Translations under genes and position numbers: made by a program
NCBI GenBank assembly: GCA_020054095.1
Contig: JAGVMA010000040.1
Coordinates: 1-48,135, forward strand
Direction: 5' to 3'
Length of the DNA stretch: 48,135 bases
DNA from: Bacteroidia bacterium
Lineage (GTDB): Bacteria > Bacteroidota > Bacteroidia > JADZBD01
Notes under the pieces: model-generated
What the model was told of the DNA's origin: nothing
The model's database searches: none
Seen by the model: the letters and a program-made list of their open reading frames with translations, nothing else
In this document: in pieces, positions 20,514-40,783 of the stretch
How the letters are laid out: each line of letters opens with the position of its first letter
How positions within the stretch are numbered: position 1 is the first letter of the stretch

Positions 20514-22148
20514 TTGAAACAATCCCTCATAATAACTTGTTTTTTGCCTGTTTTGCTGTTTGCACAGCAGAAAAACATACCACTTAACCGCGAGTTTAGT
20601 TTAAACTATGAGGCAAATATTGAGCACAATTCCCTTTCCGGATATACAGATTCAATTACGGACTTTACGCAGTTTAAACCGTATATCGAAAAAGGCGTAC
20701 GTAGCTATAGCTATTATCAATTTTCAAACAATAAGAATTTTAACAGAAAACATTATTGGCCTCCAAAAACAAATTGGTTAGTAAGAAAATTAAAGCGCGA
20801 AAGTTTTATTGTAATTGAAGATACATCCGATAATTTTTCGCTTACAATAGATCCGCTTTTTAATTTTCAAATTGGGCGCGATTTTAATGACTCGCTCAAC
20901 GAAAAAATATACACCAACACACGCGGTGTTTTAGCGCAAGGTGATATAGGCGCAAAATTTTCATTTGCTACCTCGTTTTACGAAAACCAAAGTACATTTC
21001 AGCAATACATTGATACTTTTAACCGACAATATTTAGTAGTGCCGGGCCAAGGCCGATGGAAAAAATTTAAATTAAATGGTTACGATTACGCTATGGCCAA
21101 TGGTTATGTTTCCTACAGTCCTTGCAAAATCACCAATATTCAAATGGGGCATGGTAAGCACTTTGTGGGCGATGGTTACCGTTCGTTACTTTTAAGCGAT
21201 AACGCATTTAATTATCCCTATTTGCGAATCACAAATGCGTGGAAAAATATCAGTTACACTAATTTGTACACAGTGTTTATGAACTTAACTGCCGGTGGGG
21301 TAAGCACACCGGTTGGTACAGAAAGGTTGTTCCAGAAAAAGGCAGGCAGTTTTCAGATGCTAAACATAGCAATTGCAAAAAAAATTCAACTTGGTTTTTT
21401 TCAAGGATTAATATGGCAAGCAAGCGATTCTCTAAACAGACAAAAACTGAATTTCAATTATTTTAACCCCATAATTTTTAGCAACGCACTTATTTATGGT
21501 TTAAATAAACCTATTAATGTATTGGTTGGTGCCACATTAAAAGCTTCGTTCCGAAAAAATCATTTGTACGCACAGTTTGTTGCCGATGATTTTGGAGCAA
21601 AAAACACGTTACGTAATAAAGTAGGTTATCAATTGGGATTAAAGTTTTTCGACTTGCTTAAAATCCCGAACCTTCATTTGCAAGCAGAGTATAATAAAGT
21701 GAGACCTTTCACTTATGCCTACAAAAAAGTGGAGCAGAACTATTCGCAATACAATCAATCATTAGCTCATCCATTGGGCGCAAATTTTAGTGAAATAGTA
21801 TTGTTTTTAAATTATAGAGTTGCTGATTTTTTTGCTGAGATACGATACAGTTCAGCACAAATTGGCAAAGATAGCGCAGGCACACACTTCGGCAACAATA
21901 TTTTTAATTCGGATAATAACGCAAGTGACGGTATAGCAGCAAACACATATAATTTTGGACGCGGAACTGCAACACAAATTGATTTTATAAATGCGCATAT
22001 TGGTTATTTAGTTAATCCATCAACTAACTTCAACATTGTTGCCGGTATCAGTATTCGCACCCAAAAGCAGGGCAAAGAATTAAACCAAACGCCATTTTTC
22101 TACGTAGGTATTCGTACTTCGCTCACCAATATTTATTACGATTTTTAG
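20514..22148 (+). CDS. Wzi/RemB-like outer-membrane beta-barrel protein (first copy)
   Basis: The 544-aa protein resembles the capsule-assembly Wzi family, whose Flavobacterium relatives are annotated RemB (gliding motility). Wzi is an outer-membrane lectin-like barrel that anchors polysaccharide. It starts with TTG (MKQSLIITCFLPVLLFAQ, a signal peptide) and is rich in alternating aromatic strands. Two blocks are shared with the second copy at 23374-24957: FVGDGYRSLLLSDNAFNYPY and QNYSQYNQSLAHPLGANF. The final residues are aromatic (NIYYDF), as for many barrels. It lies 39 bp before a WecA-type transferase, which supports a polysaccharide role. Direct function is inferred. Confidence 0.75.
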   Translation: MKQSLIITCFLPVLLFAQQKNIPLNREFSLNYEANIEHNSLSGYTDSITDFTQFKPYIEKGVRSYSYYQFSNNKNFNRKHYWPPKTNWLVRKLKRESFIVIEDTSDNFSLTIDPLFNFQIGRDFNDSLNEKIYTNTRGVLAQGDIGAKFSFATSFYENQSTFQQYIDTFNRQYLVVPGQGRWKKFKLNGYDYAMANGYVSYSPCKITNIQMGHGKHFVGDGYRSLLLSDNAFNYPYLRITNAWKNISYTNLYTVFMNLTAGGVSTPVGTERLFQKKAGSFQMLNIAIAKKIQLGFFQGLIWQASDSLNRQKLNFNYFNPIIFSNALIYGLNKPINVLVGATLKASFRKNHLYAQFVADDFGAKNTLRNKVGYQLGLKFFDLLKIPNLHLQAEYNKVRPFTYAYKKVEQNYSQYNQSLAHPLGANFSEIVLFLNYRVADFFAEIRYSSAQIGKDSAGTHFGNNIFNSDNNASDGIAANTYNFGRGTATQIDFINAHIGYLVNPSTNFNIVAGISIRTQKQGKELNQTPFFYVGIRTSLTNIYYDF

Positions 22149-22159
22149 CATAAATAGCC

Positions 22160-22167
22160 TACATTTG
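22160..22167 (+). promoter_or_regulatory. -7 box before the WecA-like gene
   Basis: TACATTTG, matching TAnnTTTG exactly, lies 20 nt before the TTG start at 22188 and 11 nt after the stop of the upstream gene. So the transferase may have its own promoter. Confidence 0.5.
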
Positions 22168-22187
22168 TTAACCACAACGCCCATATA

Positions 22188-23384
22188 TTGTACCCACTCA
22201 TCGTATTTATAACTGCATTTTTTTTAGTAATTATAGCAACTCCTTCGCTTATAAAGGTTGCTATATTAAAGCGTTTGCTTGATGAACCCGATGAACACCG
22301 GAAATTACACTCGCGCAGGGTGCCGACCATAGGTGGTATTATCATTTTTGCAGCCACTATTTTCTCTTTTGCGCTGTGGTTTCCTACCGAAAGTTTTTTC
22401 AAAACAGACGGAATCGGTAATCAAATAAGTGATTTAAAATACTTATCGGAAGTAAATCTATCTACCTCATCCATGAACGATTTTAAATACATATTAGCAA
22501 CCATGCTAATTATGTTTTTTGTGGGAGTGAAAGATGACATTATTGGCACTGCTGCCATCAAAAAACTAATGGCGCATATTTTAGTTGGAATGGTTTTAGT
22601 ACTAATGGCAAACGTGCGCTTAACCGGTATGCATGGTGTTTTTGGAATTTTAGAATTGCCTTATTGGGCAACAGTTTTTTTCTCAATCTTTACAATTATA
22701 GTTGTAATCAATGCATTTAATTTAATAGATGGAGTGGATGGATTAGCAGCCGGTGTTGGGTTAATTTCATCTGCCGCATTTGGAACTTGGTTTTTAATTG
22801 CCGGAGACAATGTGATGTCGCTTTTGGCATTTTCATTAGCAGGCGCATTGTTCGGATTTTTATTTTTCAATTTCAGCCCCGCAAAAATTTTTATGGGCGA
22901 TTCCGGTTCGCTTATAATCGGGCTAATCACCGTTATTATGGCTATTCGTTTAATAGAATACAATCGCCTTGACCAAAGCGATTCGGTGATGATAACCGAA
23001 ATTTCTAAACCCGTTTTTGCAATGGCGGTGCTTGCTTATCCGCTGATGGACACGCTGCGTGTTTTCGTAATCCGAATCATAAAAGGGATATCACCCTTTA
23101 CTGCCGACCGCAACCATATTCACCACCACCTTATGGATTTGGGGTTCTCGCACCGAAAAACAGTTTTGATAATTTATTCCGCCAATATTCTAATAGTAGC
23201 CGGAGTAATAGCAGTGCGAAATTTCCAAGTTGGAATTCAACTCTTAATTATTGGTGGAGCGGCTATCTTGTTATCTCAAGTACCTGTGTTTTTTAACAAT
23301 CGCAGGCGCAGGAAGTTAGAAGAGAAAAATAAACTCACAGCCGTTCATGTGAACGATAAAAAGGTCGCGGCAAATGAAGTGTAA
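22188..23384 (+). CDS. WecA-type undecaprenyl-phosphate sugar-1-phosphate transferase
   Basis: This polytopic inner-membrane enzyme transfers a HexNAc-1-phosphate from UDP to undecaprenyl phosphate and so starts O-antigen, capsule or related glycans. The 398-aa, ~11-helix protein has the PNPT family motifs in order: DEPDEHRKLHSRRVPTIGG near residue 27, the Mg-binding VGVKDDIIGTAAIKKLMAH, NAFNLIDGVDGLAAG, FMGDSGSLIIGL and the cytosolic loop RNHIHHHLMDLGFSHRKTV, whose HIHHHL marks the GlcNAc/WecA branch rather than MraY. The start is TTG 22188. The 3' end overlaps the start of the second Wzi-like gene by 11 bp, so the two are translationally linked. Confidence 0.92.
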   Translation: MYPLIVFITAFFLVIIATPSLIKVAILKRLLDEPDEHRKLHSRRVPTIGGIIIFAATIFSFALWFPTESFFKTDGIGNQISDLKYLSEVNLSTSSMNDFKYILATMLIMFFVGVKDDIIGTAAIKKLMAHILVGMVLVLMANVRLTGMHGVFGILELPYWATVFFSIFTIIVVINAFNLIDGVDGLAAGVGLISSAAFGTWFLIAGDNVMSLLAFSLAGALFGFLFFNFSPAKIFMGDSGSLIIGLITVIMAIRLIEYNRLDQSDSVMITEISKPVFAMAVLAYPLMDTLRVFVIRIIKGISPFTADRNHIHHHLMDLGFSHRKTVLIIYSANILIVAGVIAVRNFQVGIQLLIIGGAAILLSQVPVFFNNRRRRKLEEKNKLTAVHVNDKKVAANEV

Positions 23385-24957
23385 AATTTATTTTTATTTT
23401 ATTATTTGCTCTTTACTTTTCCACTTCCCTATTTTTTCTCAGCCCACTAATATTTCGCTTAACCGTGATGTGCTTGAACTCTACGATAAGTTTGGAGCCG
23501 TTGAGCACAGCGCAATAAAACCCTATTTATATACTGAGGTAAAAACCACTAATTCCGAAAAACAAAACATAAATTCGGAATTACTGCCGTTTTTTTTAAA
23601 AACACCTTTCAGCAAATTTGCTCGTTTCGATACACCACAAAAAGTACTTCTTTCACGCGCTGTTTTTAATATTTCACCCATTGCCGATTTTAATGCCGGC
23701 TATCAATTGAATACTTCGCAATTAAAAAATTATTTAGGAGGCGGTGCATGTTTTCAGTTTACTAATTACCGTTTTCACGTTCAACTAAATGCATATACCG
23801 CTTCTGCAGACTTGCCAAATTATGCCGATAGTGTGGCAAAATACACAGCTATTATTCCCGGCTGGGGGCGTGCTTATCCTACAAAAAACGGATACAGTAT
23901 GCAAAAATTATGGGGCTATGTTTCAGTGTCGCCAAATAAAATTTTCAATCTCCAATTAGGTAACGACAAAAATTTTATTGGCGATGGATACCGCTCACTT
24001 TTTTTATCAGACGCTGCAGCGCCATATCCTTTTTTTAAAATCAGTACTAAAATCTGGAAACTGAAATATCAATCGCTTTTTGCTTGGCAGCAAGATATTA
24101 CGGCTCCATCTAAATTAAAATCAGACACTAAAAATAAATTCGGCACGTTTCATTTTTTAAGTTGGAATGCCACTCGCTGGCTTAACTTAAATATTTTTGA
24201 ATCTGTAGTTTGGCAAGGAAAAGATACTAACCGTGTCCGCAATTTTGATGTGAACTATCTAAATCCTGTGGCGTTTTTTCGTCCCATTGAATATTCACTT
24301 GGCTCTTCTGATAATGCTTTTTTGGGTTTTGGTTGCAAAGTAAAATTCAATAGAAATAACCATTTATATGGGCAATTAATGTTAGACGAATTTTATTTAC
24401 CCGAAATAAAAGCAAGGCGCGGATGGTGGGCGAATAAACAAGCAGTGCAAATGGGGTTTAAAACCGAAAATCTTTTCAAGATCAAAAACCTTGCTATGCG
24501 CACCGAAGTAAATGTGGTGAGACCATATATGTATGCACACGGTAGTGTGCAACAGAACTATGGTCAACTCAACCAGTCGTTGGCACATCCGCTGGGTGCA
24601 AATTTTTACGAAGGCATAGGAATTTTAACTTATCGTTACAAAAATATTTTAATGGAAGGAAAATTAATTTACGCTGCTTATGGTGCCGATAGTGCAGGAG
24701 AAAATATGGGGCGCGATATTTTTCAATCTTACATAACACGTCCGCACGAGTTTGGTAACGAATTAACACAGGGCGTTAAAACTAATTTAATTATTGCCGG
24801 CTTGCGATGTGCCTACATGATAAAGCCCGAGTGGGGCACGCAATTTGAAGCCGGATGTTTATTTCGAACCGAGAGAAACGAGCAGTTAGTACTAAACACT
24901 GCTATGGTTTACATCGGATTTAAATCGCGACTGTGGACTGAATTCGACAGTTATTAA
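23374..24957 (+). CDS. Wzi/RemB-like outer-membrane beta-barrel protein (second copy)
   Basis: The 527-aa paralogue of the 20514 gene has a signal peptide (MKCKIYFYFIICSLLFHF then PIFSQ) and the same conserved blocks: FIGDGYRSLFLSDAAAPYPF and QNYGQLNQSLAHPLGANF, plus VNVVRPYMYAHGSV against the first copy's VRPFTYAYKKV. It overlaps the WecA-like gene by 11 bp at its start and the purS stop by 4 bp at its end. The two copies differ outside the blocks, suggesting an old duplication and different ligands. A role in fixing a glycan to the outer membrane is an inference from Wzi. Confidence 0.75.
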   Translation: MKCKIYFYFIICSLLFHFPIFSQPTNISLNRDVLELYDKFGAVEHSAIKPYLYTEVKTTNSEKQNINSELLPFFLKTPFSKFARFDTPQKVLLSRAVFNISPIADFNAGYQLNTSQLKNYLGGGACFQFTNYRFHVQLNAYTASADLPNYADSVAKYTAIIPGWGRAYPTKNGYSMQKLWGYVSVSPNKIFNLQLGNDKNFIGDGYRSLFLSDAAAPYPFFKISTKIWKLKYQSLFAWQQDITAPSKLKSDTKNKFGTFHFLSWNATRWLNLNIFESVVWQGKDTNRVRNFDVNYLNPVAFFRPIEYSLGSSDNAFLGFGCKVKFNRNNHLYGQLMLDEFYLPEIKARRGWWANKQAVQMGFKTENLFKIKNLAMRTEVNVVRPYMYAHGSVQQNYGQLNQSLAHPLGANFYEGIGILTYRYKNILMEGKLIYAAYGADSAGENMGRDIFQSYITRPHEFGNELTQGVKTNLIIAGLRCAYMIKPEWGTQFEAGCLFRTERNEQLVLNTAMVYIGFKSRLWTEFDSY

Positions 24958-25205
24958 TTTTCAAAAATTTCAAATTCGTAATATTCCATAATTGGGTTGT
25001 GCAATAATTTTTTGCATGCCTCGTCAACTTTGGTTTTTGCCATTTCTTTATTTCCGGCTTCTATTACAAGTGTTATGTGTTTGCCTATGCGAACATTTTC
25101 TATTTCTGATAAACTCAAATTTTTCATGCTGTTTGTTACTGCTTTCCCTTGCGGGTCAAGCAGGGCTTTTAATGGCATCACATTTATTTCGGCTCTAAAT
25201 TTCAT
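24954..25205 (-). CDS. purS: Phosphoribosylformylglycinamidine synthase subunit PurS
   Basis: PurS is the small subunit bridging PurL and PurQ in the fourth step of purine synthesis. The 83-aa product has the family length: MKFRAEINVMPLKALLDPQG, then KAVTNSMKNLSLSEIENVRIG and the end NPIMEYYEFEIFE. The start overlaps the 3' end of pssA by 11 bp, and the stop overlaps that of the second Wzi-like gene. No purL or purQ lies nearby, so purS travels with phospholipid genes here. Last gene of the acyltransferase-pssA-purS unit. Confidence 0.92.
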   Translation of the reverse strand: MKFRAEINVMPLKALLDPQGKAVTNSMKNLSLSEIENVRIGKHITLVIEAGNKEMAKTKVDEACKKLLHNPIMEYYEFEIFEN

Positions 25206-26112
25206 TTCTTTTTTTTTTATTTATTAAGTTATTTACAATTGATAAAAAGATGTACAAAACTATGCTTAATGCAATTCCTTGGTACTGAAATAATATTAAC
25301 ACAATGGCAGATAATACTAAAAAAAGGTAGCGAATTTCATTCCCTTTAAAGGCGAATGTCTTAAACTTTAATGCAAATAGTGGCAGTGGTGCAACAAGTA
25401 ATAAGGAAAAAATAACGGTAATAGCAATAAGTAAATAGGGATGCATTATTCCCAGTTCCCACGGAACAGAAAGTGATGGAATTTCTGTGGGAACTGCCGA
25501 CAGCATTTTATTTAAATCAAGTGATTGCAAACTATCGAACAAACTTAGCGGATTATTAACAGCGTTTAATGCTGTTTTAAAATTATTAACTGCACTGGTA
25601 ATAAACTCAAGTCCGCTGCCAATTATTAGCGGAATAGAACAAATAAAAATACTGTTTGCCGGTGTGGGTAATCCTATAAATGAATCGGTTTGGCGAGTGT
25701 CAACGTTAAATTTTGCTAATCGTATTGCCGAAAAAACTGGAATTAAAAAAGCAAAATAGGGCAGAAAATTAAATTCGTTTGGCTTTGTAAAACTATCAAT
25801 AGCTGTACTCAGCGATAGATTAGCGGGGTTGAATTTTTGAATCAAGCAAGCATAGCCAATTAAGTGGAACATTACAATGCCCGGCAATACACCAAATGTT
25901 ACCATATCTGCAAGCGAATCGAGTTGCTTACCAATTTCGGAATGTACCTTTAAGATGCGCGCCATAAATCCATCTAAAAAATCGAAAATGGCAGCTATAC
26001 CAACCATATATGCGCTCCAAATAAGATTGCCTTTAAAGGCAAACACAATACCTATGCAGCCACAAAGCAAGTTTAGGCAGGTGATAAAGTTGGGTATGTT
26101 TCGTTTTATCAA
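25195..26112 (-). CDS. pssA: CDP-diacylglycerol--serine O-phosphatidyltransferase
   Basis: PssA makes phosphatidylserine, the precursor of phosphatidylethanolamine, in the inner membrane. The 305-aa protein opens MIKRNIPNFITCLNLLCGCI with about 8 helices. The CDP-alcohol phosphotransferase motif is complete: D44, D47, G48, A51, R52, G61, D65 and D69 (DFLDGFMAR, then G and QLDSLAD). It starts with TTG at 26112, overlapping the TGA of the upstream acyltransferase by 4 bp, and its end overlaps the purS start by 11 bp, so all three genes are tightly coupled. Confidence 0.95.
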   Translation of the reverse strand: MIKRNIPNFITCLNLLCGCIGIVFAFKGNLIWSAYMVGIAAIFDFLDGFMARILKVHSEIGKQLDSLADMVTFGVLPGIVMFHLIGYACLIQKFNPANLSLSTAIDSFTKPNEFNFLPYFAFLIPVFSAIRLAKFNVDTRQTDSFIGLPTPANSIFICSIPLIIGSGLEFITSAVNNFKTALNAVNNPLSLFDSLQSLDLNKMLSAVPTEIPSLSVPWELGIMHPYLLIAITVIFSLLLVAPLPLFALKFKTFAFKGNEIRYLFLVLSAIVLILFQYQGIALSIVLYIFLSIVNNLINKKKRNEI

Positions 26113-27191
26113 AGGTTGTTTTTATAATTTAAAAATCTTTTTTCAAGAAAAGTGAAACTGAGCCAAGCCAATAGCACGGTTATTCCAAAAATAAAAAGTG
26201 GGTTCATCATCAGCAATTCTAATTTACTGTTTAGTTCAAATGCGATAGCAATTTTACTAAAAATACTGAGTGCTATGGTGTGAAAACAATACAAGCCGAA
26301 TGATATTTTTCCGAGAAAATTAATATTGCCGTTGCCACCAAGTTTAATTAAAGAATTATTCGCATATACTTGTTCGAGTATAACGAAGCAGAAAAATAAG
26401 CCAAAAATTATTTTTTCGAACACAAGTAGAACACCGCTATTATACCATACCGAGTAAAATAATATGTTAATGAAAATTACGAGGTAAAAGATAAGGATGA
26501 AGCCAAAACTGAGATTTTTTATTTTTTCGATAAATGCGCTTTTGTTTATTGCCAGCCTTGCAGCCATTGCCCCCATTGAGAAATAGCTTAAGTAACTAAA
26601 GCTGCTGAAATAAATAAGTTGACTATTTGATTGTGCCATTGCTCTAAAAAGTATACTTACTAAAATCATCGATAAGCATATTTCGGTAAAATATTTTTTC
26701 AGATACTTAATGCAAAATCCGAAAAAAAGATAAAACTGAAGTTCAACTGCAATTGTCCAACAAATGGCAGCAAATGGTAAAAACAAAATTGGATTATCTG
26801 CCAAGTAGAAATTAAGAGTAAGTGCAAAATGCCAAGCCGGAGGCAGCGTATATAGTTGGTTGGTAAAAAAATGACTTACATATATTATCATGAATATTAA
26901 AAAATAAAGCGGAAAAATTCGCAGCGCACGCTTACGATAAAAGTTTTTCAACGAAAAGTTTCCAGATGATTGGTACTCGTTTAAAATAGTCCAAGTGATG
27001 ATGAAGCCTGAAAGCGTAAAAAAATAATCAACGCCAAGCTGAAAGGTGTTAATGTGTGCATCAAAAAACTGCTTTAGCTGTGGATGGTATTTAAATTCCG
27101 GAACTGAAAGTATATGCAATAAAAATACCGATAGAAATGCCCAAAATCGGGTGGCATCTAAATTGGCTAATCTTTTTTCAGTTATTTCCAC
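26109..27191 (-). CDS. Membrane acyltransferase (acyltransferase-3 family)
   Basis: The 360-aa, ~10-helix protein resembles the O-acetyltransferases (OafA/NodX type) that modify surface glycans or peptidoglycan. Family motifs are LDATRFWAFLSVFLLHI with its essential-type R and H, LGVDYFFTLSGFIIT and FYRKRALRIFPLYFL. The start is GTG at 27191; a TATTTTTG box ends only 4 nt upstream (27196-27203 on the minus strand), which suggests a leaderless transcript. First gene of the pssA-purS operon. The substrate is unknown; the WecA/Wzi cluster just downstream on the other strand makes a surface glycan reasonable. Confidence 0.88.
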   Translation of the reverse strand: MEITEKRLANLDATRFWAFLSVFLLHILSVPEFKYHPQLKQFFDAHINTFQLGVDYFFTLSGFIITWTILNEYQSSGNFSLKNFYRKRALRIFPLYFLIFMIIYVSHFFTNQLYTLPPAWHFALTLNFYLADNPILFLPFAAICWTIAVELQFYLFFGFCIKYLKKYFTEICLSMILVSILFRAMAQSNSQLIYFSSFSYLSYFSMGAMAARLAINKSAFIEKIKNLSFGFILIFYLVIFINILFYSVWYNSGVLLVFEKIIFGLFFCFVILEQVYANNSLIKLGGNGNINFLGKISFGLYCFHTIALSIFSKIAIAFELNSKLELLMMNPLFIFGITVLLAWLSFTFLEKRFLNYKNNL

Positions 27192-27203: not shown

Positions 27204-27273
27204 GTATTAATGCAGACAATAAATCGTTGGTTTTTCCGTTATCGTATGTAATTGTTGATAAGCAAATATTACT

Positions 27274-27293: not shown

Positions 27294-28370
27294 ATGAAAA
27301 AATTAAATTCATTTTTAGTTGCCGTAGTTATTACTTCTTCGGCATTAGCCCAAGCGCCAAAATACAGTAATGAGTTTTTGTCAATTGGCGTAGGAGCTCG
27401 TGCGCTGGGCATGTCGAACTCAAATGTTGTTTCGGTAAATGATGTTACAGCAGGATATTGGAACCCGGCCGGATTGCTACACATTAAAACCGATTACAAC
27501 GTGGCGTTAATGCACGCCCAATATTTTGCCGGAATAGCCAAATACGACTATGCAGGTTTTGCAAAGCGAATAGACTCCTCGTCTGTATTTAGTGTGAACA
27601 TAATTCGTTTTGGAGTGGATAACATTCCAAATACAACCGAACTGATAGACGCCCAGGGGAATGTGAATTACGACAGAATTACAACATTTACAGCTGCCGA
27701 TTATGCATTTATGTTTTCGTATGCACGGAAATTAAAAATGGAAGGACTTAAAGTAGGAGCAAGTGCAAAAATTATACGCAGAAAAGTAGGTGATTTTGCC
27801 GGTGCTTGGGGATTTGGTATAGATGCCGGAGCTCAATACGAATACAAAAAATGGAATTTTGGTTTAATGCTGCGCGATGTTACCACCACTTTTAATGCAT
27901 GGAGTTTTAATTTAACTGACGAAATGAAGCAAACCTTTATTGCCACCGGCAATGAAATACCCGATAACAGCGTAGAAATTACACTCCCCAAAATGATACT
28001 AGGCGCAGCTCGTAAATGGGATTTTAAACACAACTTATCGCTAATGGCAGAGGCCAATTTTGATTTCACATTTGATGGAAAAAGAAATACCATCATTAAA
28101 TCGAACTTTACAAGTATTGACCCGCATGGCGGCTTTGAGTTTGGCTACAATAATTTGGTTTTTTTGAGAATGGGGGTTTATAATCTTCAACAAATCACAG
28201 ATATTGCCGGTAAAAAGGGCTGGAGCATACAACCTAACTTTGGACTGGGTGTAAAAATAAAACGTTTTAGTATTGATTATGCACTAACCGATATTGGCGA
28301 TGCCTCAGTAGCGCTTTATTCAAATATATTTTCTGTAAAAATAGATTTAGATAAAAAGAAAATAAAATAA
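27294..28370 (+). CDS. PorV/PorQ-family outer-membrane protein (PorV2-like)
   Basis: The 358-aa FadL-like barrel has a signal peptide (MKKLNSFLVAVVITSSALAQ). It continues FLSIGVGARALGMSNSNV and ends its first block with TAGYWNPAGL, the signature of the PorV/PorQ family. PorV of the T9SS shuttles cargo from the translocon to the PorU sortase. The gene lies 15 bp before a PorU-like peptidase, the usual arrangement of the secondary pair called PorV2-PorU2 in Bacteroidota. A role as shuttle for that peptidase is inferred. It is distinct from the main porV, which normally sits beside the main porU. Confidence 0.82.
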   Translation: MKKLNSFLVAVVITSSALAQAPKYSNEFLSIGVGARALGMSNSNVVSVNDVTAGYWNPAGLLHIKTDYNVALMHAQYFAGIAKYDYAGFAKRIDSSSVFSVNIIRFGVDNIPNTTELIDAQGNVNYDRITTFTAADYAFMFSYARKLKMEGLKVGASAKIIRRKVGDFAGAWGFGIDAGAQYEYKKWNFGLMLRDVTTTFNAWSFNLTDEMKQTFIATGNEIPDNSVEITLPKMILGAARKWDFKHNLSLMAEANFDFTFDGKRNTIIKSNFTSIDPHGGFEFGYNNLVFLRMGVYNLQQITDIAGKKGWSIQPNFGLGVKIKRFSIDYALTDIGDASVALYSNIFSVKIDLDKKKIK

Positions 28371-28385
28371 TACTTCAACAGTCTA

Positions 28386-31300
28386 ATGAAGAAACTTTAC
28401 ACCTTATTCTTCATCGTTTTTTTTGCAAACAACTTGCTTGCCCAAAATTATGGCAACGAGTGGATTGACTACAGCCAAAAATATTATCGCATTAAAATAT
28501 ATTCTGACGGGGTTTACCGCATAGACTCATCGGCACTTGCAGCAAGTGGCATAAACTTATCCGGATTAAATCCGCAGTGGTTTCAATTGTTTGGCAGAGG
28601 AGCAGAGCAGGCGATATTTATAAACGGTGAAGCAGATGGTATTTTTAATACAAGCGATTTCATAGAATTCTACGGCCGCAAAAACGATGGTTATTTCGAC
28701 CAACAACTGTACGATACTGCCGCAAATCCCAATCCCTATTATAGTTTAATTACAGATACAGCCACTTACTTTCTCACTTGGAAACCAAATACATCTAACA
28801 ATTTGCGCTTACAAGTTATTTCGGATACAACATTTAGTCAATATACTCCTGTAAATTATTTTTTCAAAGAAGATGTCATTATTAGACCGAATGATTTTTT
28901 TGGAGGAAATACGTTAACCGTAGGAGCTACAGAGCCACAGTACACACAAGGCGAAGGTTGGTTTGATTACGCTTTCACAAAAGGCAACAGCCCACTACCT
29001 TTTATATTTAACACATCAAATGTTTTTTCCGGAGGCCCATTATCGGTAATTAAGTTTACAGCAGTAGGAGCATCAAATGAATTTAACACGCTTGCTAAAG
29101 ATCATGAGTTGCTTGCCGAGTATAATAACATCAATAATGTATTTAATGTTATTGCTGATACATTATTTGATGGTTACAAGCAAGTAGTCATTAATTTTCA
29201 GTTGGCAAGTAACCAATTAGGAGCTAACACAACAGTTAGATTTACAAGTGTAAACAATCCCAATTTTTCATGGGGCAATAGAACAGCTATTGCACATGTT
29301 TCGCTCAAGTTTCCCCATAACTTGAATTTAGAAAACACATCAGCATATAAATTGTTTCTGCCCGATAATACACAGCAAACAAAATCTTTTTTAAATTTTT
29401 CAAATTTTAGCTCCTCAAACACACAGATTTATTTATACGACATTACTAATGCAAAAAGATACATTGTAACAAGTGCAAATGGTAACCAAAAAGTATTGGT
29501 GCAAAATACAAACAATGAAAAAGAGTGTTATGTTTTCGCATCCTCTCAAATACAAACTATTTCATCCCTTACACCAGTAACTAGCAATGCTCAATTCACA
29601 CAATTTTCACCTTCTGATTTTGATTCGGCATATTTGATCATCACACATAATTCGCTGATGAATGGAGCACAACAATACGAGAATTATCGCCAATCTTTAG
29701 CTGGAGGCTCGCACAATGTTTTAGTTGCGGATGTAAACGAATTATATGATCAATATGCTAATGGTATAGAAAACCATCCCCTCGGAGTAAAAAACTTTTT
29801 ACGTTTTGGAATTGATACTGCCGATGTTGTTCCTCGTTACCTCTTTCTTCTTGGTAAATCAATAGTGTATATAGAGAGTCGTAAAGCATCATATAATAGT
29901 AGCTTCCAAAGCAACTTTAACAAAACTCTAGTTCCGTGCATCGGCTATCCTGCTGTAGATAACATGTTTACTGCCGGATTAATTGGAACTATGCTACAAC
30001 CATTTATACCTACCGGTAGATTAGCAGCAAATACTAACCAAGAAGTTATTGATTATTTGAACAAGATTATCTTACACGAATCTAATACACCAGGAGCATG
30101 GATGAAGCATGTTTTACATTTTGGAGGCGGCTCAAATACATTTGAACAAAATGCCATACAACAATACTTAACAAATTACGAAAACGTAATAGAAAGCCCG
30201 CTCTTTGGCGGATCTGTTCATACTTTTTTAAAAACCACTAGCCAGCCCATCCAACTAACAATATCCGACTCAGTGAAGGCACTAGTAAATAATGGTGTTT
30301 CATTGATGACATTTTTTGGCCATGCATCGGGTAACAGTTTTGACCAAAACTTGGATTTGCCACAGAACTACAATAACTATGGGAAGTATCCTGTACTTTT
30401 AGCTAATGCTTGTTTCACCGGAGATATCCACCAGCCAGTTGGCTTAGCTCAATCAAGCGCAAGCGAAGAGTGGGTACTCGTCCCAAACAAGGGAGTAGTT
30501 GCATTTGTTGCAACTGTAAGCAAGAGTGTAATGTTTGCACTTAACCTTTTTAGCGCGGGTTTTTACAATAACCTATCCGGTACACATTACAATAAATCAT
30601 TAGCCGAGAACATAAAACAATCCATCACCACTTATCAAAACCCACTTGACCCTATATTAAATGCAGTGCTTTTTGAATTTACACTGCATGGCGACCCGGC
30701 ACTAAAATTGAACAATCACCTCTTACCGGATTACTCAATTGCTGACAGCAGCATTTATTTCTCGCCACAAATTGTAACCACTGCCATTGATTCGTTTGGT
30801 ATGAACGTAGTTATCACCAATATCGGAAAAGCAACTAACGACACCGTTCTGGTAGAAGTTAAACGCATTTTCCCCGATGGCTCATCGGTGATTAAAACAA
30901 AGCAGCTCACAGCAATTTATTACCGCGATACTGTTGCTTTCACATTTGAAGTAGATAAAATAAAAGGACCCGGCTTAAATAAATTTGAAGTGAGAGTTGA
31001 CCCACTATATGCAATTAATGAATTGAGCGAAAACAATAACAATGTAGTATTCCCACCTGCATTGCTTTTAATTTCTTCGGGCGATATCAATCCAATTTAT
31101 CCATACAAGTACGCAATAATTCCTAATGATACAGTTACACTTAAAGCATCAACCGGAGACCCATTTGCAAAAACAGCAAAGTATCGTTTTGAGATTGATA
31201 CCACTGATTTGTTTACCACTGTTCTATCATCCACACAATTAATTGCACCGGGCGGTGTTTTAAAATGGCAAGTACCGCTTACGTTAACAGATAGCACTGT

Positions 31301-33446
31301 TTATTTTTGGCGCATTCGCAGAGATACAACCGATACAACTAATTATCGCTGGAAAGAATTTTCTTTCCAATACATAAAAAATAAACGCGGGTGGGAGCAG
31401 GCACATTTTTTTCAGTTCAAGAATGATGATTTTTCTTTTTTAAATCATAACCGAACCACACGCACCTTTGATTTTGTGCAAACGGGCAAAACTTTAATTT
31501 GTAACGATTATGGTCAGCGACCACCAAATTTAAATACCACACAACTTTACGGAACGGAATATAAACTCGATTTAGACATTATAGAATATGCAGGATGCGG
31601 TGGCGCACCGGCAATGCACATAGCAGTTATTGATCCAATTACATTACTACCATGGGGCAAACATTGGATTGATAATTCGCAACAGCCGCCTGTGGAGTAC
31701 AATACCAATCACGATTACGGAAATCAAAACAACTTGAGCAATTGTCGCGATAGGATGGAGCGCTATTTTATTTTCCGCTACAGCGATGCCGCTCAAATGC
31801 AAGGCATGAAACAAATGTTAATGGACTCTGTGCCAAATGGACATTATGTTTTGGCTTACACCTGGATAAATGGTTCGTTTCGCTCGTGGGCTGATACTAC
31901 AGCTAAAACCGCTTTTGATTTGCTTGGTTCGCAGTACATACACACCATGCCCGACTCAATACCTTATATTTTCTTTTGCAAAAAAGGCGATACTTCTTCT
32001 GTAATTGAATTGGTTGGACAATCGGCCACCGATTTTTTGCAACTGCAAACTGTGCTTACCAACAACGCTTACGTAGGCACAATTAATTCCGAAATCATTG
32101 GTCCTGCCATTTCTTGGGATTCATTATCATGGTATCAAAAATCATTTGAAAATCCATCGCAAGATTCAGTAGCATTAAATATTATTGGCATAAACAACGC
32201 AGGACAAGAGGTGGTGTTGCGACAAGGACTGCCCATTGATTCTGCAAATATCTACATCAGCAATATTAATGCGGCTAATTATCCGTTCTTGAAACTTAAT
32301 TTGTTTGTTGAAGATGACAGCTTGAACACTGCAGCACAATTAAAAAAATGGCAAGTATTTTACCAGCCCGCACCCGAATTGTCAGTGAATCCGCCCGTAT
32401 TGTTTTCTTTTTACAGCGATACGCTACAAGAAGGCGACAGCTTGCGATTTAAAGTAGCAGTTACAAATGTGAGCGAATTTTACATGGATAGTACACTCGT
32501 TACATTCTGGATAATTGACCGAAACAGAGCCTTGCAACCTGTATCGAGTTACATGGCAAAACCTTTAATGCCCGATAGCTCGCTAATCACATCGGTTAAT
32601 TTTGCTACCAATGGTTTGCCGGGCATAAATAGCGTGTGGATGGAAATAAACCCAATAAACCGACCACAAACAAAATACGAGCAATATCATTTTAACAACA
32701 TAGCACAGTTAGGATTTTTTGTTGGCGTAGATAAGACTAATCCGCTGCTTGATGTTACGTTCGATGGAGTGCATATCCTTAACGGAGATATTGTATCGGG
32801 TAAACCATCCATACTTGTTAAGCTAAAAGACGAAAATATGTTTTTGGCATTAAACGATACTGCTGATTTTGCGGTGTACGTTAAAAGCCCATCGCAGCAA
32901 ACGGCACAGCGTATTTATTTTAGTAGTATTATGATTTTTGAACAAGCTAACTTACCTAACAATAGTTGTAAAATAAATTACACACCCACACTTTTAGAAG
33001 ATGGTATTTATGAATTTATCGTTCAGGCAAAAGACCGCAGCGCAAACAATTCGGGGGCGATAGATTATAAAATAACCTTTGAAGTAATAAATAAACCAAG
33101 TGTAACCGAAGTGTTAAACTATCCAAATCCATTTTCAACTTCCACCCGTTTTGTATTTACGTTAACGGGAAACGAAGTACCCGATTACTTTAAAATTCAA
33201 ATATTCACCATCACCGGAAAATTAATAAAAGAAATAAGTAAAGATGAATTGGGTAATATTCACATTGGGCGCAACATTACTGATTATGCATGGGATGGGA
33301 CAGATATGTTTGGCGATAAATTAGCTAACGGAATTTACTTATACCGTGTGCAAACACAATTAAACGGCAGCGAGATGGAAAAACGCGAATCGGGTGCTGA
33401 TTCATATTTCAAAAAAGGATTTGGCAAAATGTATCTAATGCGTTAG
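28386..33446 (+). CDS. C25-family cysteine peptidase, PorU2-like sortase
   Basis: The 1686-aa secreted protein has the C25 (gingipain/PorU) fold. PorU is the T9SS sortase that removes C-terminal sorting domains and attaches cargo to lipopolysaccharide. The signal peptide MKKLYTLFFIVFFANNLLAQ is followed by a beta-rich region; the C25 domain covers about residues 400-770. The catalytic dyad appears intact: H646 in FFGHASG and C676 in LLANACFTGD. CARDB/Ig-like modules lie near 780-890 and 1340-1450. The end (from ~1578, LNYPNPFSTSTRFVF, DGTDMFGDKLANGIYLYRV) is a FlgD-like Ig domain, not a cleaved sorting signal, as also seen in PorU. It is larger than PorU of Porphyromonas (~1158 aa). It probably processes a subset of cargo (inference). 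Confidence 0.85.
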   Translation: MKKLYTLFFIVFFANNLLAQNYGNEWIDYSQKYYRIKIYSDGVYRIDSSALAASGINLSGLNPQWFQLFGRGAEQAIFINGEADGIFNTSDFIEFYGRKNDGYFDQQLYDTAANPNPYYSLITDTATYFLTWKPNTSNNLRLQVISDTTFSQYTPVNYFFKEDVIIRPNDFFGGNTLTVGATEPQYTQGEGWFDYAFTKGNSPLPFIFNTSNVFSGGPLSVIKFTAVGASNEFNTLAKDHELLAEYNNINNVFNVIADTLFDGYKQVVINFQLASNQLGANTTVRFTSVNNPNFSWGNRTAIAHVSLKFPHNLNLENTSAYKLFLPDNTQQTKSFLNFSNFSSSNTQIYLYDITNAKRYIVTSANGNQKVLVQNTNNEKECYVFASSQIQTISSLTPVTSNAQFTQFSPSDFDSAYLIITHNSLMNGAQQYENYRQSLAGGSHNVLVADVNELYDQYANGIENHPLGVKNFLRFGIDTADVVPRYLFLLGKSIVYIESRKASYNSSFQSNFNKTLVPCIGYPAVDNMFTAGLIGTMLQPFIPTGRLAANTNQEVIDYLNKIILHESNTPGAWMKHVLHFGGGSNTFEQNAIQQYLTNYENVIESPLFGGSVHTFLKTTSQPIQLTISDSVKALVNNGVSLMTFFGHASGNSFDQNLDLPQNYNNYGKYPVLLANACFTGDIHQPVGLAQSSASEEWVLVPNKGVVAFVATVSKSVMFALNLFSAGFYNNLSGTHYNKSLAENIKQSITTYQNPLDPILNAVLFEFTLHGDPALKLNNHLLPDYSIADSSIYFSPQIVTTAIDSFGMNVVITNIGKATNDTVLVEVKRIFPDGSSVIKTKQLTAIYYRDTVAFTFEVDKIKGPGLNKFEVRVDPLYAINELSENNNNVVFPPALLLISSGDINPIYPYKYAIIPNDTVTLKASTGDPFAKTAKYRFEIDTTDLFTTVLSSTQLIAPGGVLKWQVPLTLTDSTVYFWRIRRDTTDTTNYRWKEFSFQYIKNKRGWEQAHFFQFKNDDFSFLNHNRTTRTFDFVQTGKTLICNDYGQRPPNLNTTQLYGTEYKLDLDIIEYAGCGGAPAMHIAVIDPITLLPWGKHWIDNSQQPPVEYNTNHDYGNQNNLSNCRDRMERYFIFRYSDAAQMQGMKQMLMDSVPNGHYVLAYTWINGSFRSWADTTAKTAFDLLGSQYIHTMPDSIPYIFFCKKGDTSSVIELVGQSATDFLQLQTVLTNNAYVGTINSEIIGPAISWDSLSWYQKSFENPSQDSVALNIIGINNAGQEVVLRQGLPIDSANIYISNINAANYPFLKLNLFVEDDSLNTAAQLKKWQVFYQPAPELSVNPPVLFSFYSDTLQEGDSLRFKVAVTNVSEFYMDSTLVTFWIIDRNRALQPVSSYMAKPLMPDSSLITSVNFATNGLPGINSVWMEINPINRPQTKYEQYHFNNIAQLGFFVGVDKTNPLLDVTFDGVHILNGDIVSGKPSILVKLKDENMFLALNDTADFAVYVKSPSQQTAQRIYFSSIMIFEQANLPNNSCKINYTPTLLEDGIYEFIVQAKDRSANNSGAIDYKITFEVINKPSVTEVLNYPNPFSTSTRFVFTLTGNEVPDYFKIQIFTITGKLIKEISKDELGNIHIGRNITDYAWDGTDMFGDKLANGIYLYRVQTQLNGSEMEKRESGADSYFKKGFGKMYLMR

Positions 33447-33520
33447 CGGCACAATTTCTGAAACACATTAAACCATTCAAAAAAATAGTAGTCATAACAA
33501 AAAAATTAAAAAACCAGCGT

Positions 33521-33985
33521 ATGAAAAAAATAATGATGTTAACGCTAATAGCTCTGATGATTGCACCTGCCATAGCTCAAAAAAAAGGACCAAAGCCTAA
33601 CTACAAAGCAAATGCTAAACGAGTTATTGCCGTAACTCAAGTGGTAATTCATAAAACCAAAAAAGCGGTAAAAGAAAATAAAGTTTATACCGGCAATTTG
33701 GCAAAAGCCATTCGCCACCAGCGCTTTGCTCGTAAATTATTTGCTCAGGGCAAATATATACGAGCCATGCACCAATCGCGCAGAGCACGTTACTTCGCCA
33801 AACTTGCTTATGCAGCTAACAAAGGTGCAGATTCTGATGATATGAATTTCAGCAAAGAAGACGATGATCTGATGAATACAAATCCGGTTAACGATACCGA
33901 TTTAGATAATGAAATGATGAAAGACGATCCTAACGGCCCCACCAAAGACGAAGATGTGGTTGGCTTACCAGATGAAAAAGAATAA
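33521..33985 (+). CDS. Small secreted protein with basic body and acidic tail
   Basis: I do not recognise this 154-aa protein. It has a signal peptide (MKKIMMLTLIALMIAPAIAQ). Residues 21-100 are strongly basic and helical (HKTKKAVKENKVY, IRHQRFARKLFAQGKYIRA, QSRRARYFAKLAYAANK), with only one acidic residue. Residues ~101-154 are the opposite: about 19 Asp/Glu against four Lys, with DDMNFSKEDDDL, NDTDLDNEMMKDDP and DEDVVGLPDE. The tail could bind Ca or fold back on the basic half. It lies 74 bp after the PorU2-like gene and ends in a strong terminator, so it may be the last gene of that unit. A periplasmic location is predicted. Confidence 0.7.
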   Translation: MKKIMMLTLIALMIAPAIAQKKGPKPNYKANAKRVIAVTQVVIHKTKKAVKENKVYTGNLAKAIRHQRFARKLFAQGKYIRAMHQSRRARYFAKLAYAANKGADSDDMNFSKEDDDLMNTNPVNDTDLDNEMMKDDPNGPTKDEDVVGLPDEKE

Positions 33986-33999
33986 AAATTAAATTGTAA

Positions 34000-34030
34000 A
34001 CTCCCGATAAAAAATATCGGGAGTTTTGCT
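34000..34030 (+). terminator. Intrinsic terminator after the charge-split gene
   Basis: ACTCCCGATA-AAAAA-TATCGGGAGT followed by TTT; a perfect 10-bp stem ending the PorV2/PorU2 region. Confidence 0.85.
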
Positions 34031-34067: not shown

Positions 34068-35666
34068 TTGACGAAAAGCAATTATTTTTCATTAGCCATA
34101 ACAACCGGATTGCTGCTAACAGCCGCCTGGCCCGTTATGGGCTTTGCACCAATTATTTTCTTTGCTTTTGTGCCGCTTTTAATTTTAGAACAAAGAATAA
34201 CCGTATCAGATGTTGTAAAAAAAAGCAGAGCAGTATTTGGCTACAGTTATCTCAGTTTTTTTATTTGGAATGCGATCAGCACTTGGTGGATTTGGAATGC
34301 TACTGCCGGTGGAGCAATAATGGCAATCGCGGCAAACTCGCTTTTAATGTCGTTAGTGTTTTTGTTTTACCACAAAACAAAAAATAAAATCGGGCATAAA
34401 TATGCTCCGTTTATTTTTTCGGCTTATTGGATTTCATTTGAATACCTGCACCTGCATTGGGACATATCCTGGACCTGGCTCAATTTAGGAAACGTATTTT
34501 CAAATTATTACAACCTGGTGCAATGGTATGAATACACAGGTGTTTTTGGCGGAGCATTATGGATTATAGCAACTAATTTTTTAGTACTGCGACTTTATGA
34601 TTTACATTTTTCATCCGATAGAAAAACGTCTCTTATCAGAAAAAACAGTGCTGCTTTAATTTTGTTAATTCTGGTTCCTGTTATTTGTTCGGTTATAGTG
34701 AAATTTGTAAGCAAAACATTTTATAAAGGTGGCGGCACAGATGTAGTTATTGTGCAGCCAAACATTGACCCGTACAACGAAAAATTTAGCGGCAATTTTA
34801 TGCAGCAATTAGATAAAATGTTGCAACTCGCTTTACAAAAAGTAGATTCAAATACATCTTATTTAGTTTTCCCCGAAACTGCACTTACTGAAAGTATTTG
34901 GGAAAACGATTTTAAGCAAACCTATAGTTACAGTGCGTTAAAAAAATACGTTAAAAAATTTCCGCGCCTTAAAATAATTATTGGCGCAAACACATGGAAA
35001 GCTTATGAGGGCAAAGAAAAACCATCTTTAACTGCGCGTAAATTTGAACGCGAAGAAGGATATTATGACGTGTTCAACACAGCTATTCAAATAGATAATT
35101 CTGACTCGGTGCAGATTTATCATAAATCTAAATTAGTTCCCGGTGTAGAAAAAATGCCGTTTCCGCAGGTTTTAGGTTTTTTAGAATCGCTTGCAATAAA
35201 AATGGGTGGCAGTACAGGTAGCTTGGGAGTGCAAGATGAGCCATCGGTTTTTTATGCTGATGATAAAAGAACTATTGCACCCATCATTTGCTACGAATCA
35301 ATTTACGGAGGTTATGTAGGCGATTATGTGAACAAAAGTGCCGGACTGCTTTTTATTATTACGAATGACGGATGGTGGGGCGATACTCCGGGATATAAAC
35401 AGCATTTGAGCTACGCTTCGCTGCGAGCTATTGAAACTCGCAGATGGATTGCTCGCTCGGCAAACACAGGAATTTCTTGTTTTATAAATCCGCAGGGCGA
35501 AGCAACGCAACAAACTGCGTGGTGGCAACAAGCAGTAGTAAAAGAGCAACTGTATTTTAGTAATTACATTACCTTTTACACACTCTTTGGCGATTACATA
35601 GCTTTTTTTGCCGTAGTTGCAACAATAGTTTTTGCCATTTTTTCGGTATTGCCGATAAAAAAATAA
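34068..35666 (+). CDS. lnt: Apolipoprotein N-acyltransferase
   Basis: Lnt adds the third acyl chain to outer-membrane lipoproteins at the periplasmic face of the inner membrane. The 532-aa protein starts with TTG (MTKSNYFSLAITTGLLL) and has about six N-terminal helices, a nitrilase domain and a last helix near 505-525. The Glu-Lys-Cys triad is in place: E270 in VFPETALTES, K353 in YHKSKLVPGVE and C408 in IICYES; the last is followed by YGGYVGDYVNKSAGL and then TNDGWWGDTPG. Length and order match E. coli Lnt (512 aa). It is followed without a gap by an open fragment in another frame. Confidence 0.95.
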   Translation: MTKSNYFSLAITTGLLLTAAWPVMGFAPIIFFAFVPLLILEQRITVSDVVKKSRAVFGYSYLSFFIWNAISTWWIWNATAGGAIMAIAANSLLMSLVFLFYHKTKNKIGHKYAPFIFSAYWISFEYLHLHWDISWTWLNLGNVFSNYYNLVQWYEYTGVFGGALWIIATNFLVLRLYDLHFSSDRKTSLIRKNSAALILLILVPVICSVIVKFVSKTFYKGGGTDVVIVQPNIDPYNEKFSGNFMQQLDKMLQLALQKVDSNTSYLVFPETALTESIWENDFKQTYSYSALKKYVKKFPRLKIIIGANTWKAYEGKEKPSLTARKFEREEGYYDVFNTAIQIDNSDSVQIYHKSKLVPGVEKMPFPQVLGFLESLAIKMGGSTGSLGVQDEPSVFYADDKRTIAPIICYESIYGGYVGDYVNKSAGLLFIITNDGWWGDTPGYKQHLSYASLRAIETRRWIARSANTGISCFINPQGEATQQTAWWQQAVVKEQLYFSNYITFYTLFGDYIAFFAVVATIVFAIFSVLPIKK

Positions 35667-39532: not shown

Positions 39533-40783
39533 ATGCGCCCCTTATTTATTATAATCGCCCTATTATTTTCACAAGTGTTTACTATTGCGCAGGCACGCAT
39601 TGTTTTTAACGCTAATCCTTATGTAGTGATGAACGGTGGTATATACATCGTACAGGCCAATCCGGCAACCAATGCAATTAGCGGAGCCGGTAGAATAATT
39701 TCTGAAGCAGAAACAAATAGAGTGAGGTGGATGATTGGCACATCAACAGGAACTTACACTATGCCTTTCGGATATACGGGCGCAATCAGTATCCCACATT
39801 CAATTACCATTGGCACAGCAGGTGTTGGTGCCACCGGCTATATAGATTTTTCAACATATAGAACACCAACCTTTATGAATACACCTTGGGCAACCGGTGT
39901 TACTCATCTAACAAATAATAATACGCTTCTTCCTAACCAAACTTATGTTTTAGACAGATGGTGGATTACAAATGCAGCAAGCTATACCACCAAGCCAGCG
40001 TTATCAGGAATGTTGTTTACATATATTGATGCAGAATGGTTGGCCGTAGGAAACACAATTAGTGAAGCCAACCTTCAGGCACAGCGGTTTAACACCACAG
40101 CCAATGTTTGGTACGATATGGCTCCAATAGGAGTAGTTAATACAGGTGCAAATACAGTAACCATTTCCACTGCGGTATCATCTGCTAATTTCTTTCGCCC
40201 ATGGGTTCTGGTAGATAACCTTTATCCCCTTCCTGTGGTTTTATCAGATTTTAATGCAACATGTAATGCTACAAATAAAACTGCCGAACTAAACTGGACA
40301 ACCCAATCTGAAACAAATAACGACTATTTCATGATTGAACGAAGCACCGATGGATTTAACTTTGAGCAAATAGCAATTGTGGATGGAGCTGGAAACAGTA
40401 ACATAACACTAAACTATACGTTTATTGATGATAGCCCTTTGCCGGTCACATCTTATTACAGATTATCACAATTTGATTTTTCAAATTATAAAACCGAAGG
40501 AAATATTTTAAGTTTTGAAAATTGCTTTAACAATGTTTTAGATGCACTTACAATAGTAACGGATGGTAATAGCAACTTTTTACAAATAAATGCAATTACC
40601 GATGGCGTTTACACACTTGAGCTTTTTGATGCATCCGGAAAAATTATTCAGCGCGAAAATGTTACAGTATCAAAAGGCAATAACATATTTGCAATAGAAA
40701 ATATTTTTGCACAAGGCATTTATTTCTTGCGTGCTTCCAACGATTTACAATCAGTCACAAAAAAATTAATTATAAAAAAATAA
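39533..40783 (+). CDS. T9SS type A cargo protein of unknown function
   Basis: A secreted 416-aa protein. The signal peptide MRPLFIIIALLFSQVFTIAQ is followed by a beta-rich domain at about 25-235 (RIVFNANPYVVMNGGIYIV, TYTMPFGYTGAISIP), which often precedes sorting domains in Bacteroidota. A fibronectin-like module follows at about 236-330 (LPVVLSDFNATCNATNKTAE, then SETNNDYFMIERSTDGFNF). The T9SS sorting domain covers the last ~70 residues (YTLELFDASGKIIQ, QGIYFLRASN, SVTKKLIIKK). The next gene begins 3 bp later, so both are made together. Confidence 0.82.
   Translation: MRPLFIIIALLFSQVFTIAQARIVFNANPYVVMNGGIYIVQANPATNAISGAGRIISEAETNRVRWMIGTSTGTYTMPFGYTGAISIPHSITIGTAGVGATGYIDFSTYRTPTFMNTPWATGVTHLTNNNTLLPNQTYVLDRWWITNAASYTTKPALSGMLFTYIDAEWLAVGNTISEANLQAQRFNTTANVWYDMAPIGVVNTGANTVTISTAVSSANFFRPWVLVDNLYPLPVVLSDFNATCNATNKTAELNWTTQSETNNDYFMIERSTDGFNFEQIAIVDGAGNSNITLNYTFIDDSPLPVTSYYRLSQFDFSNYKTEGNILSFENCFNNVLDALTIVTDGNSNFLQINAITDGVYTLELFDASGKIIQRENVTVSKGNNIFAIENIFAQGIYFLRASNDLQSVTKKLIIKK

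Follow-up and report, generated by a model that had tools for sequence, protein, structure and literature searches.

We analyzed a 48,135-nt stretch of DNA from a Bacteroidia bacterium (GenBank assembly GCA_020054095.1, contig JAGVMA010000040.1, forward strand), hereafter called the window, and in particular three consecutive genes at positions 27,294 to 33,985. The first two encode PorV2 and PorU2, a putative outer-membrane anchor and a putative second sortase of the type IX secretion system (T9SS); the third encodes a small protein of split charge that is described below. All three genes were open, as originally predicted. The pair and its domains, with amino acid (aa) positions referring to PorU2, are as follows.

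27294..28370, + strand: porV2, a PorV/PorQ-family outer-membrane barrel and the proposed anchor of PorU2
28386..33446, + strand: porU2, a 1686-aa secreted C25 cysteine peptidase and the proposed second sortase
29631..30710, + strand: C25 catalytic domain, aa 416-775
30321..30323, + strand: catalytic His646
30411..30413, + strand: catalytic Cys676, in a C-x-x-G-[DN] loop
30777..31046, + strand: first CARDB domain, aa 798-887
31383..32363, + strand: predicted insert absent from PorU, a jelly roll (aa 1000-1326) interrupted by a FAM3-like domain
31482..32069, + strand: predicted domain with the POMGnT1-stem/FAM3 (ILEI) fold, aa 1033-1228
32358..32732, + strand: second CARDB domain, aa 1325-1449
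32727..33443, + strand: Ig-like plus sorting domain, aa 1448-1686
33087..33443, + strand: PorU2-type sorting domain, aa 1568-1686

PorV2 scored 528.9 bits against NCBIfam model NF052325 (cut-off 325) and PorU2 scored 779.2 bits over aa 6-885 against NF052324 (cut-off 450), which bears out the predicted PorV2-like/PorU2-like pair; both proteins are members of these families by score, with nothing beyond ordinary divergence. The open reading frame (ORF) caller started porV2 at a TTG at 27252, and an in-frame ATG is at 27294. PorV2 belonged to the shared PorV/PorQ family (115.2 bits, cut-off 90), yet it fell below the specific cut-offs for PorV (47 bits against 250 for NF033710, and 23.4 bits against 27 for Pfam PorV) and for PorQ (82.3 bits against 220 for NF033711). 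PorU2 resembles PorU (NF033707) in its N-terminal region, its C25 domain with a His-Cys dyad (PF01364, 193.3 bits, cut-off 23), its C-terminal Ig-like and sorting domains and its neighboring PorV-family barrel. It differs from PorU in being about 500 residues longer, in the residues around the catalytic Cys, and in reaching only 217.6 of the 420 bits demanded by the PorU model. The order of genes also differs within this genome, with the barrel preceding the enzyme in PorV2-PorU2 and following it in PorU-PorV. The extra CARDB and Ig-like modules of the original prediction were recovered: the first CARDB (PF07705) straddled its cut-off of 22.7, with 21.5 bits when the full protein was scanned and 23.6 bits for the C-terminal part, and the second was clear by structure only (match to 3idu, Z 13.0, 110 residues aligned, root-mean-square deviation [rmsd] 2.8). 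The region of aa 1448-1686 matched residues 935-1157 of PorU (6za2) with Z 10.6 over 194 aligned residues, at an rmsd of 13.0 that spans two domains.

The same genome encodes a canonical PorU (G000:C21:18985-22374, 1291.9 bits) with PorV beside it, together with SprA and, as another gene, PorQ (367.3 bits). Since a canonical PorU and PorV lie elsewhere in the genome, PorU2 and PorV2 are not its main sortase, and the unit is indeed separate from the canonical one. To place the pair we examined 60 related genomes and an even draw of the class comprising 295 genomes. PorU2 exceeded its cut-off in 50 of the 60 relatives and in 208 of the 295 class genomes, and 280 of the latter matched the PorU2 model at some level. 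Of the 50 relatives with PorU2, 49 showed one or more additional, weaker matches to that model, the exception being the genome G036. Three relatives (G026, G033 and G041) had no PorU or PorU2 match and also no SprA, and three others that were 99-100% complete (G005, G020 and G022) had PorU and SprA without PorU2. Several genomes carried two PorU2 matches above the cut-off (G187, G228, G241, G277 and G289), and in the first two of these the matches were close together.

Gene order was assessed at 80 named PorU2 loci, the best 80 of 492, which were drawn with patterns from PorU2 so that near relatives of the window may be missing; some of them seem to duplicate genomes of the other sets (L084/G032, L106/G057, L079/G251). 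PorV2 was directly upstream of PorU2 in 73 of the 80 loci, and 2 more start too near a contig edge. The gap was 30 bp or less in 66 of the 73, with a median of -4 bp, so that porV2 and porU2 often overlap. Cultured carriers of the pair include Fulvivirga imtechensis (L145) and Brumimicrobium aurantiacum (L105). The flanks of PorU2 varied between lineages, apart from a purS/phosphatidylserine-synthase-like pair that lies upstream, on the opposite strand, in many loci.

We then compared paralogues in a second set (PorU2, n=24; PorU, n=21; PorV, n=21; PorV2, n=20, the last taken from a one-sequence search that may have missed some PorV2). PorU and PorU2 fell into separate tree groups with a support of 1.0, as did PorV and PorV2; because the trees have no outgroup, they show two groups and not which is older. 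PorU2 length ranged from 1651 to 1736 aa in the 24 members, and PorU length from 1110 to 1219 aa in 20 of 21, with 1310 aa in the genome of the window. The 1686 aa that had been singled out as unusual are therefore typical of a PorU2.

A profile of 18 PorU2s hit only two solved structures at E≤0.01, PorU (6za2) with E 2e-17 and gingipain R with E 3.9e-8; a search of the PDB with the single PorU2 sequence gave nothing at E≤0.1, so these matches come from profiles only. The predicted peptidase with an intact dyad was confirmed. His646 was a His in all 81 PorU2s aligned and in all 24 PorU2s and 21 PorUs of the second set, while Cys676 was a Cys in 80 of 81 (the other row having a gap), in 24/24 PorU2s and in 21/21 PorUs. 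Relative to the Cys, every one of the 21 PorUs has T at -3, A at -2, E at +1, R at +4 and P at +8. Among the 24 PorU2s, 22 carry N at -2, 22 carry G at +3 and 23 carry D or N at +4. Gingipain R, whose match covers part of C25 only (profile positions 511-766), has C, G and D spaced identically. PorU2 thus retains the dyad while the residues surrounding the Cys have changed, which points to a different substrate or acceptor.

The C-terminal sorting domain was recognized by TIGR04183, the T9SS type A sorting domain model, with 25.8 bits at aa 1579-1665 (cut-off 23). In alignments of 50 PorU2s, consisting of the window and the 49 of the 80 loci whose matches extend to the end of the query, the last 119 residues were the best-conserved segment of the protein, followed closely by an Ig block at 1451-1475. 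The majority residue reached 0.72-0.81 in four of five sorting-domain blocks and 0.62 in the fifth; in the C25 blocks, from an alignment of 18 rows, it was 0.44-0.60. Over the 21 genomes that encode PorU as well as PorU2, mean pairwise identity of PorU2 was 0.64-0.66 across residues 1551-1650, 0.54 over the last 36 residues, and 0.51 in the best 50-residue block of C25; in PorU, C25 and tail were roughly equal. A profile of the tail, searched against 60 genomes at E≤1e-8, recovered PorU2s in 47 genomes at 150 bits or more, a weaker second PorU2 copy in G040 (104.4 bits), the PorU2 of G015 (72.5 bits), PorU at 40-80 bits and one other protein at 37.2 bits. We regard the sorting domain as private to PorU2, and by eye no variable linker separates it from the Ig-like domain. 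A private, best-conserved tail without a variable linker suggests that the domain is kept as a dock, as excerpts of PMC11285876 describe for PorU, PorZ and PorA, whose sorting domains are not removed. We consider that it probably serves as a private dock and is not cleaved off; PorV is reported to be the anchor of PorU (PMC7463736).

The additional ~500 residues of PorU2 come after the C25-CARDB part and before the tail. An AlphaFold model of aa 776-1686 (911 residues) reached a predicted local distance difference test (pLDDT) of 89.2 and a predicted template modeling score (pTM) of 0.65. As its Foldseek matches were largely unspecific, to long chains of many domains, we modeled the insert on its own. 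The resulting model of aa 1000-1326 (m02a27328b8e7; pLDDT 93.3, pTM 0.80) looks like a jelly roll hosting a FAM3-like domain. Residues 1033-1228 matched the POMGnT1 stem (5ggj) with Z 17.1 over 146 aligned residues at an rmsd of 2.1, FAM3 proteins with Z of about 14.5, and next the TMEM2 ectodomain with Z 12.1. The remaining matches, at Z 9.5 or less (8.5-9.5 for the jelly roll), spanned the whole of aa 1000-1326 and included carbohydrate-binding modules, the C-terminal domain of PNGase and the sugar-binding ubiquitin ligase Fbs1, as well as meprins, ephrin receptors and phage tail proteins. Searching the PDB with a profile built from the insert gave only FAM3B, POMGnT1, FAM3C and FAM3A at E≤1, the best at E 0.0011. 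Pfam ILEI matched 28 of the 50 PorU2s at E≤0.01; the PorU2 of the window gave 18.9 and 19.7 bits, below the cut-off of 27. The POMGnT1-stem/FAM3 fold is thus predicted with confidence, and it differs from its namesakes in being set in a jelly roll, in its sub-threshold Pfam score and in its residues at the sugar contacts. The POMGnT1 stem and FAM3C bind N-acetylglucosamine, POMGnT1 through R129, D179 and R207, according to PMC9802357. An argument for sugar binding from these contact residues was not supported by the alignment counts given below. The linking sugar of the Porphyromonas gingivalis T9SS is related to a di-N-acetylated glucuronic acid, the expected Wbp pathway product (PMC7468200, in part), and PorZ presents anionic lipopolysaccharide to PorU in the passages of PMC8545088 that deal with it. 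This linking-sugar chemistry and the PorZ-presented lipopolysaccharide make a built-in glycan module an appealing idea, and sugar binding by the insert remains speculative.

One genome offered a view of PorU2 without PorU. G036, which consists of 2 contigs and is rated 100% complete, encodes SprA (2705 bits), PorV (487.8 bits), PorV2 (475 bits) and PorU2 (822.5 bits). No PorU was found in it, the best match to the PorU model being PorU2 itself at 116.4 bits. A tblastn search with 21 PorUs of the 20 kb around its PorV gave 96 rows, the best with E 0.007 over 81 residues; this row fell at the far end of the stretch rather than beside PorV, and we took the rows as chance. Eight type A sorting-domain matches above the cut-off were present, including PorU2 and one (L233) that by eye does not look like a proper sorting domain. 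This leaves about six further proteins; a PKD-repeat protein, an fn3/PA14 protein and an M43 peptidase are of this type. Elsewhere, such matches numbered 72, 86, 112 and at least 150 in four PorU-carrying genomes, and 1 and 0 in two that lack SprA. The type A proteins of G036 are the first candidate clients of PorU2, in a single genome.

We propose, with about even confidence, that PorU2-PorV2 is a second T9SS attachment unit that serves a subset of cargos, most likely one that works in the manner of PorU-PorV. PorU2 would be exported by the SprA translocon via its own C-terminal sorting domain, which would stay on and dock the enzyme to PorV2 at the cell surface, much as PorU docks to PorV. 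The His646-Cys676 dyad would then cleave the sorting domains of some cargos and hand over the newly formed C terminus to an acceptor on the surface, presumably by transpeptidation, with a specificity different from that of PorU. We infer this sortase function, that is, cleavage together with joining to a glycolipid, by analogy with PorU. The insert, composed of the predicted jelly roll, the POMGnT1-stem/FAM3-like domain and CARDB, may position or bind the acceptor or the cargo. In favor of the proposal are the profile match of PorU2 to PorU, the intact dyad, the conserved adjacency of PorV2, the split of both paralogue pairs into separate groups, the lack of SprA in the three relatives that have neither PorU nor PorU2, the conserved private tail, and G036, which keeps type A proteins while no PorU was found in it.

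Several observations weigh against this proposal. The PorU residues at -3, -2, +1 and +4 occurred in none of the 24 PorU2s and the P at +8 in 10 of them, and a loop of the gingipain kind would fit a plain endopeptidase equally well. PorV2 scored nearer to PorQ than to PorV, so it may anchor without shuttling cargo, and it was not beside PorU2 in 5 of the 78 loci having room (L129, L138, L139, L143 and L149, two of them Pedobacter records). The tree distances of PorU2 correlated with those of PorV2 at 0.82, of PorV at 0.83 and of PorU at 0.86; co-evolution of PorU2 with PorV2, which we had considered, gave no signal above shared ancestry. Apart from one weak match of 37.2 bits (G023:C13), no cargo sharing the PorU2-type sorting domain was found by the tail profile in the 60 genomes at E≤1e-8, and a client group marked by that domain was rejected on this basis. 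One relative (G059, 95% complete) has PorU2 and PorU with no SprA match, and G036 is one genome with only eight type A matches. For the insert, the pTM of the 911-residue model leaves the relative placement of its domains uncertain, and at the columns of R129, D179 and R207, aligned with HMMER, the POMGnT1 residue was present in 1, 1 and 0 of the 50 PorU2s.

The alternative that survives best, which we hold to be possible and clearly less probable than a second attachment unit, is that PorU2 is a gingipain-type endopeptidase anchored at the surface on PorV2, where it would mature or degrade surface proteins without any sugar acceptor. The C-x-x-G-[DN] loop, as in gingipain R and unlike PorU, favors this explanation, as does a C25 domain that is less conserved than the sorting domain when the two are about equal in PorU. 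It accounts poorly for the PorU architecture, with its PorU-like N-terminal region, C25, and Ig-like and sorting domains, and for a gene pair that mimics PorU-PorV.

A bolder form of the second-sortase proposal, about which we are doubtful, is that PorU2 is a self-contained glycan-transferring sortase whose insert would hold the sugar acceptor at the active site and so do the job of PorZ in one chain. In Bacteroidia a single translocon would then feed two parallel anchoring routes that differ in their acceptors or cargos, and PorU2 alone would suffice where PorU has been lost. The likeness to PorZ lies in this proposed role of presenting a glycan acceptor. PorZ is a separate protein with two beta-propellers and a sorting domain, as far as the excerpt of PMC8545088 describes it, and Pfam scans of PorU2 gave no propeller.

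We regard two further explanations as unlikely, and to a similar degree. PorU2-PorV2 could act on the substrates of PorU-PorV as its backup or quality-control copy, as might be suggested by G036, in which PorU2 is the only PorU-type protein found and type A cargos remain. The deep divergence of the two groups and the changed active-site loop speak against redundancy, as does the retention of both, 49 of the 50 relatives with PorU2 having a further, weaker match to its model. Alternatively, the unit might assemble one specific surface structure, such as a surface layer or a motility adhesin, and not act on a class of cargo. That PorU2 is dispensable for the T9SS itself in G005, G020 and G022, and that no common type of sorting domain marks its clients, would agree with such a role; against it, no third gene was seen traveling with the pair across lineages, where the flanks change.

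Downstream of porU2 we identified the following features.

33521..33985, + strand: gene for a small, secreted-looking, charge-split protein of 154 aa, an optional member of the locus
33998..34026, + strand: terminator-like hairpin after the small gene and before lnt, with a 12-pair stem, the longest in the region
34068..35666, + strand: lnt, apolipoprotein N-acyltransferase (TIGR00546, 227.8 bits), a neighbor outside the unit

The small protein belonged to no Pfam or NCBIfam family, its one NCBIfam match being a SoxAX-binding protein at 16.4 bits, far under the cut-off of 95. The charge split of the original prediction was confirmed, with +22 over residues 20-103 and -15 over residues 104-154. 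By eye the protein begins like a signal peptide; it continues with a basic region and ends in an acidic one, and each of these two regions contains residues conserved in 8 aligned members. When a charge-split test was applied to the 332 ORFs of 120-220 aa that the window and 100 loci contain, 15 passed, all of them members of the small-gene family; not every member passes, since 21 loci hold one and the member in G007 has only about +6/-4. The family was present in 24 of the 295 genomes, with 19 strong members (97 bits or more). We examined the neighborhoods in 21 genomes (19 strong and 2 weak), leaving out three weak matches (G145, G175 and G078). Five of the 19 strong members lay directly after PorU2, with a gap of 61-74 bp (the window, G001, G019, G229 and G077), two (G110 and G172) lay no more than ~1 kb from PorU2 or from its last fragment, and one ~9 kb away (G006). 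PorU2 was not near the remaining 11; in G014 and G007 the contig stops less than ~2 kb from one side of the small gene and PorU2 is on other contigs. The small gene was found at none of the 80 other, named PorU2 loci; at 8 of these, no ORF follows PorU2. In G172 (L160, 9897..15861) PorU2 is split into several frames, either through an assembly error or through genuine decay, and weak relatives of the small protein lie directly upstream of proteins of 2440 and 2811 aa in L169 (9106..9564) and L170 (9099..9566).

A hairpin with a T-rich tail followed the small gene in three of the five direct cases (the window, L153 and L162) and also in L152 and L159, and was not clear in L151 and L161; the region contained 10 such hairpin sites, where chance alone would give 7.8. 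The short gap together with the hairpin suggests that the small gene may share a transcript with PorU2 there. The lnt gene directly followed the small gene in 7 of the 8 genomes with PorU2 within ~9 kb, a 247-aa gene intervening in G110. A role as a partner of lnt was considered and rejected, as no lnt was present in the neighborhoods of the other 11 strong members, so that the association is only local synteny. Nor did the original suggestion of a general cofactor or substrate hold, given the 24 of 295 genomes, the absence from the 80 loci and the 11 of 19 strong members located elsewhere; the absence of the small gene beside PorU2 in relatives was largely borne out, yet the five direct cases stand. 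The small gene represents a real protein family, located between PorU2 and lnt in a few lineages, and is no core cofactor. That it is a functional third component of the unit is very unlikely, its position close behind PorU2 in five genomes, the hairpin in three and its conservation over 8 aligned members being outweighed by its absence from the 80 loci, by the 11 strong members elsewhere and by G006, in which it still sits beside lnt with PorU2 ~9 kb off.

Elsewhere in the window there were, as predicted, several sorting-domain genes, three besides PorU2 (7601..8953, 14171..17029 and 39533..40783, the last barely above the cut-off). A 469-aa secreted-looking protein with no Pfam family is encoded at 40787..42196, directly after the last of these cargo genes. 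A few kb upstream of porV2, at 20514..24957, two proteins of 544 and 527 aa that share a BLAST cluster and have no Pfam family flank a glycosyl transferase family 4 gene. The purS/phosphatidylserine-synthase-like pair that recurs at many PorU2 loci lies upstream of porV2 at 24954..26112 on the opposite strand, and a membrane acyltransferase gene (Acyl_transf_3) at 26109..27191 is divergent to porV2; its relatives occur close to PorV2 at a few further loci, such as L072, L095, L096 and L153.

Excerpts of T9SS papers and reviews (PMC8545088, PMC7468200, PMC7463736 and PMC11285876) present PorU as the system's sortase. Our literature search found no paper naming a PorU2 or PorV2 family, and NCBIfam labels both "putative"; the string "PorV2" in T9SS texts was PorV plus a citation or footnote mark, and its other uses concern rotavirus and Helicobacter. 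Among the excerpts that this search covered, there was none on PorU or PorV paralogues of this kind and none linking type IX secretion with FAM3. If PorU2 is a second sortase, cargo processing and surface anchoring would be divided between two enzymes in most sampled genomes of the class (208/295), and the phenotypes of porU mutants may under-report T9SS activity. With its private sorting domain, its gingipain-like active site and an insert resembling a glycan module, PorU2 would lend itself to specific tests of this in cultured genera that carry the pair.

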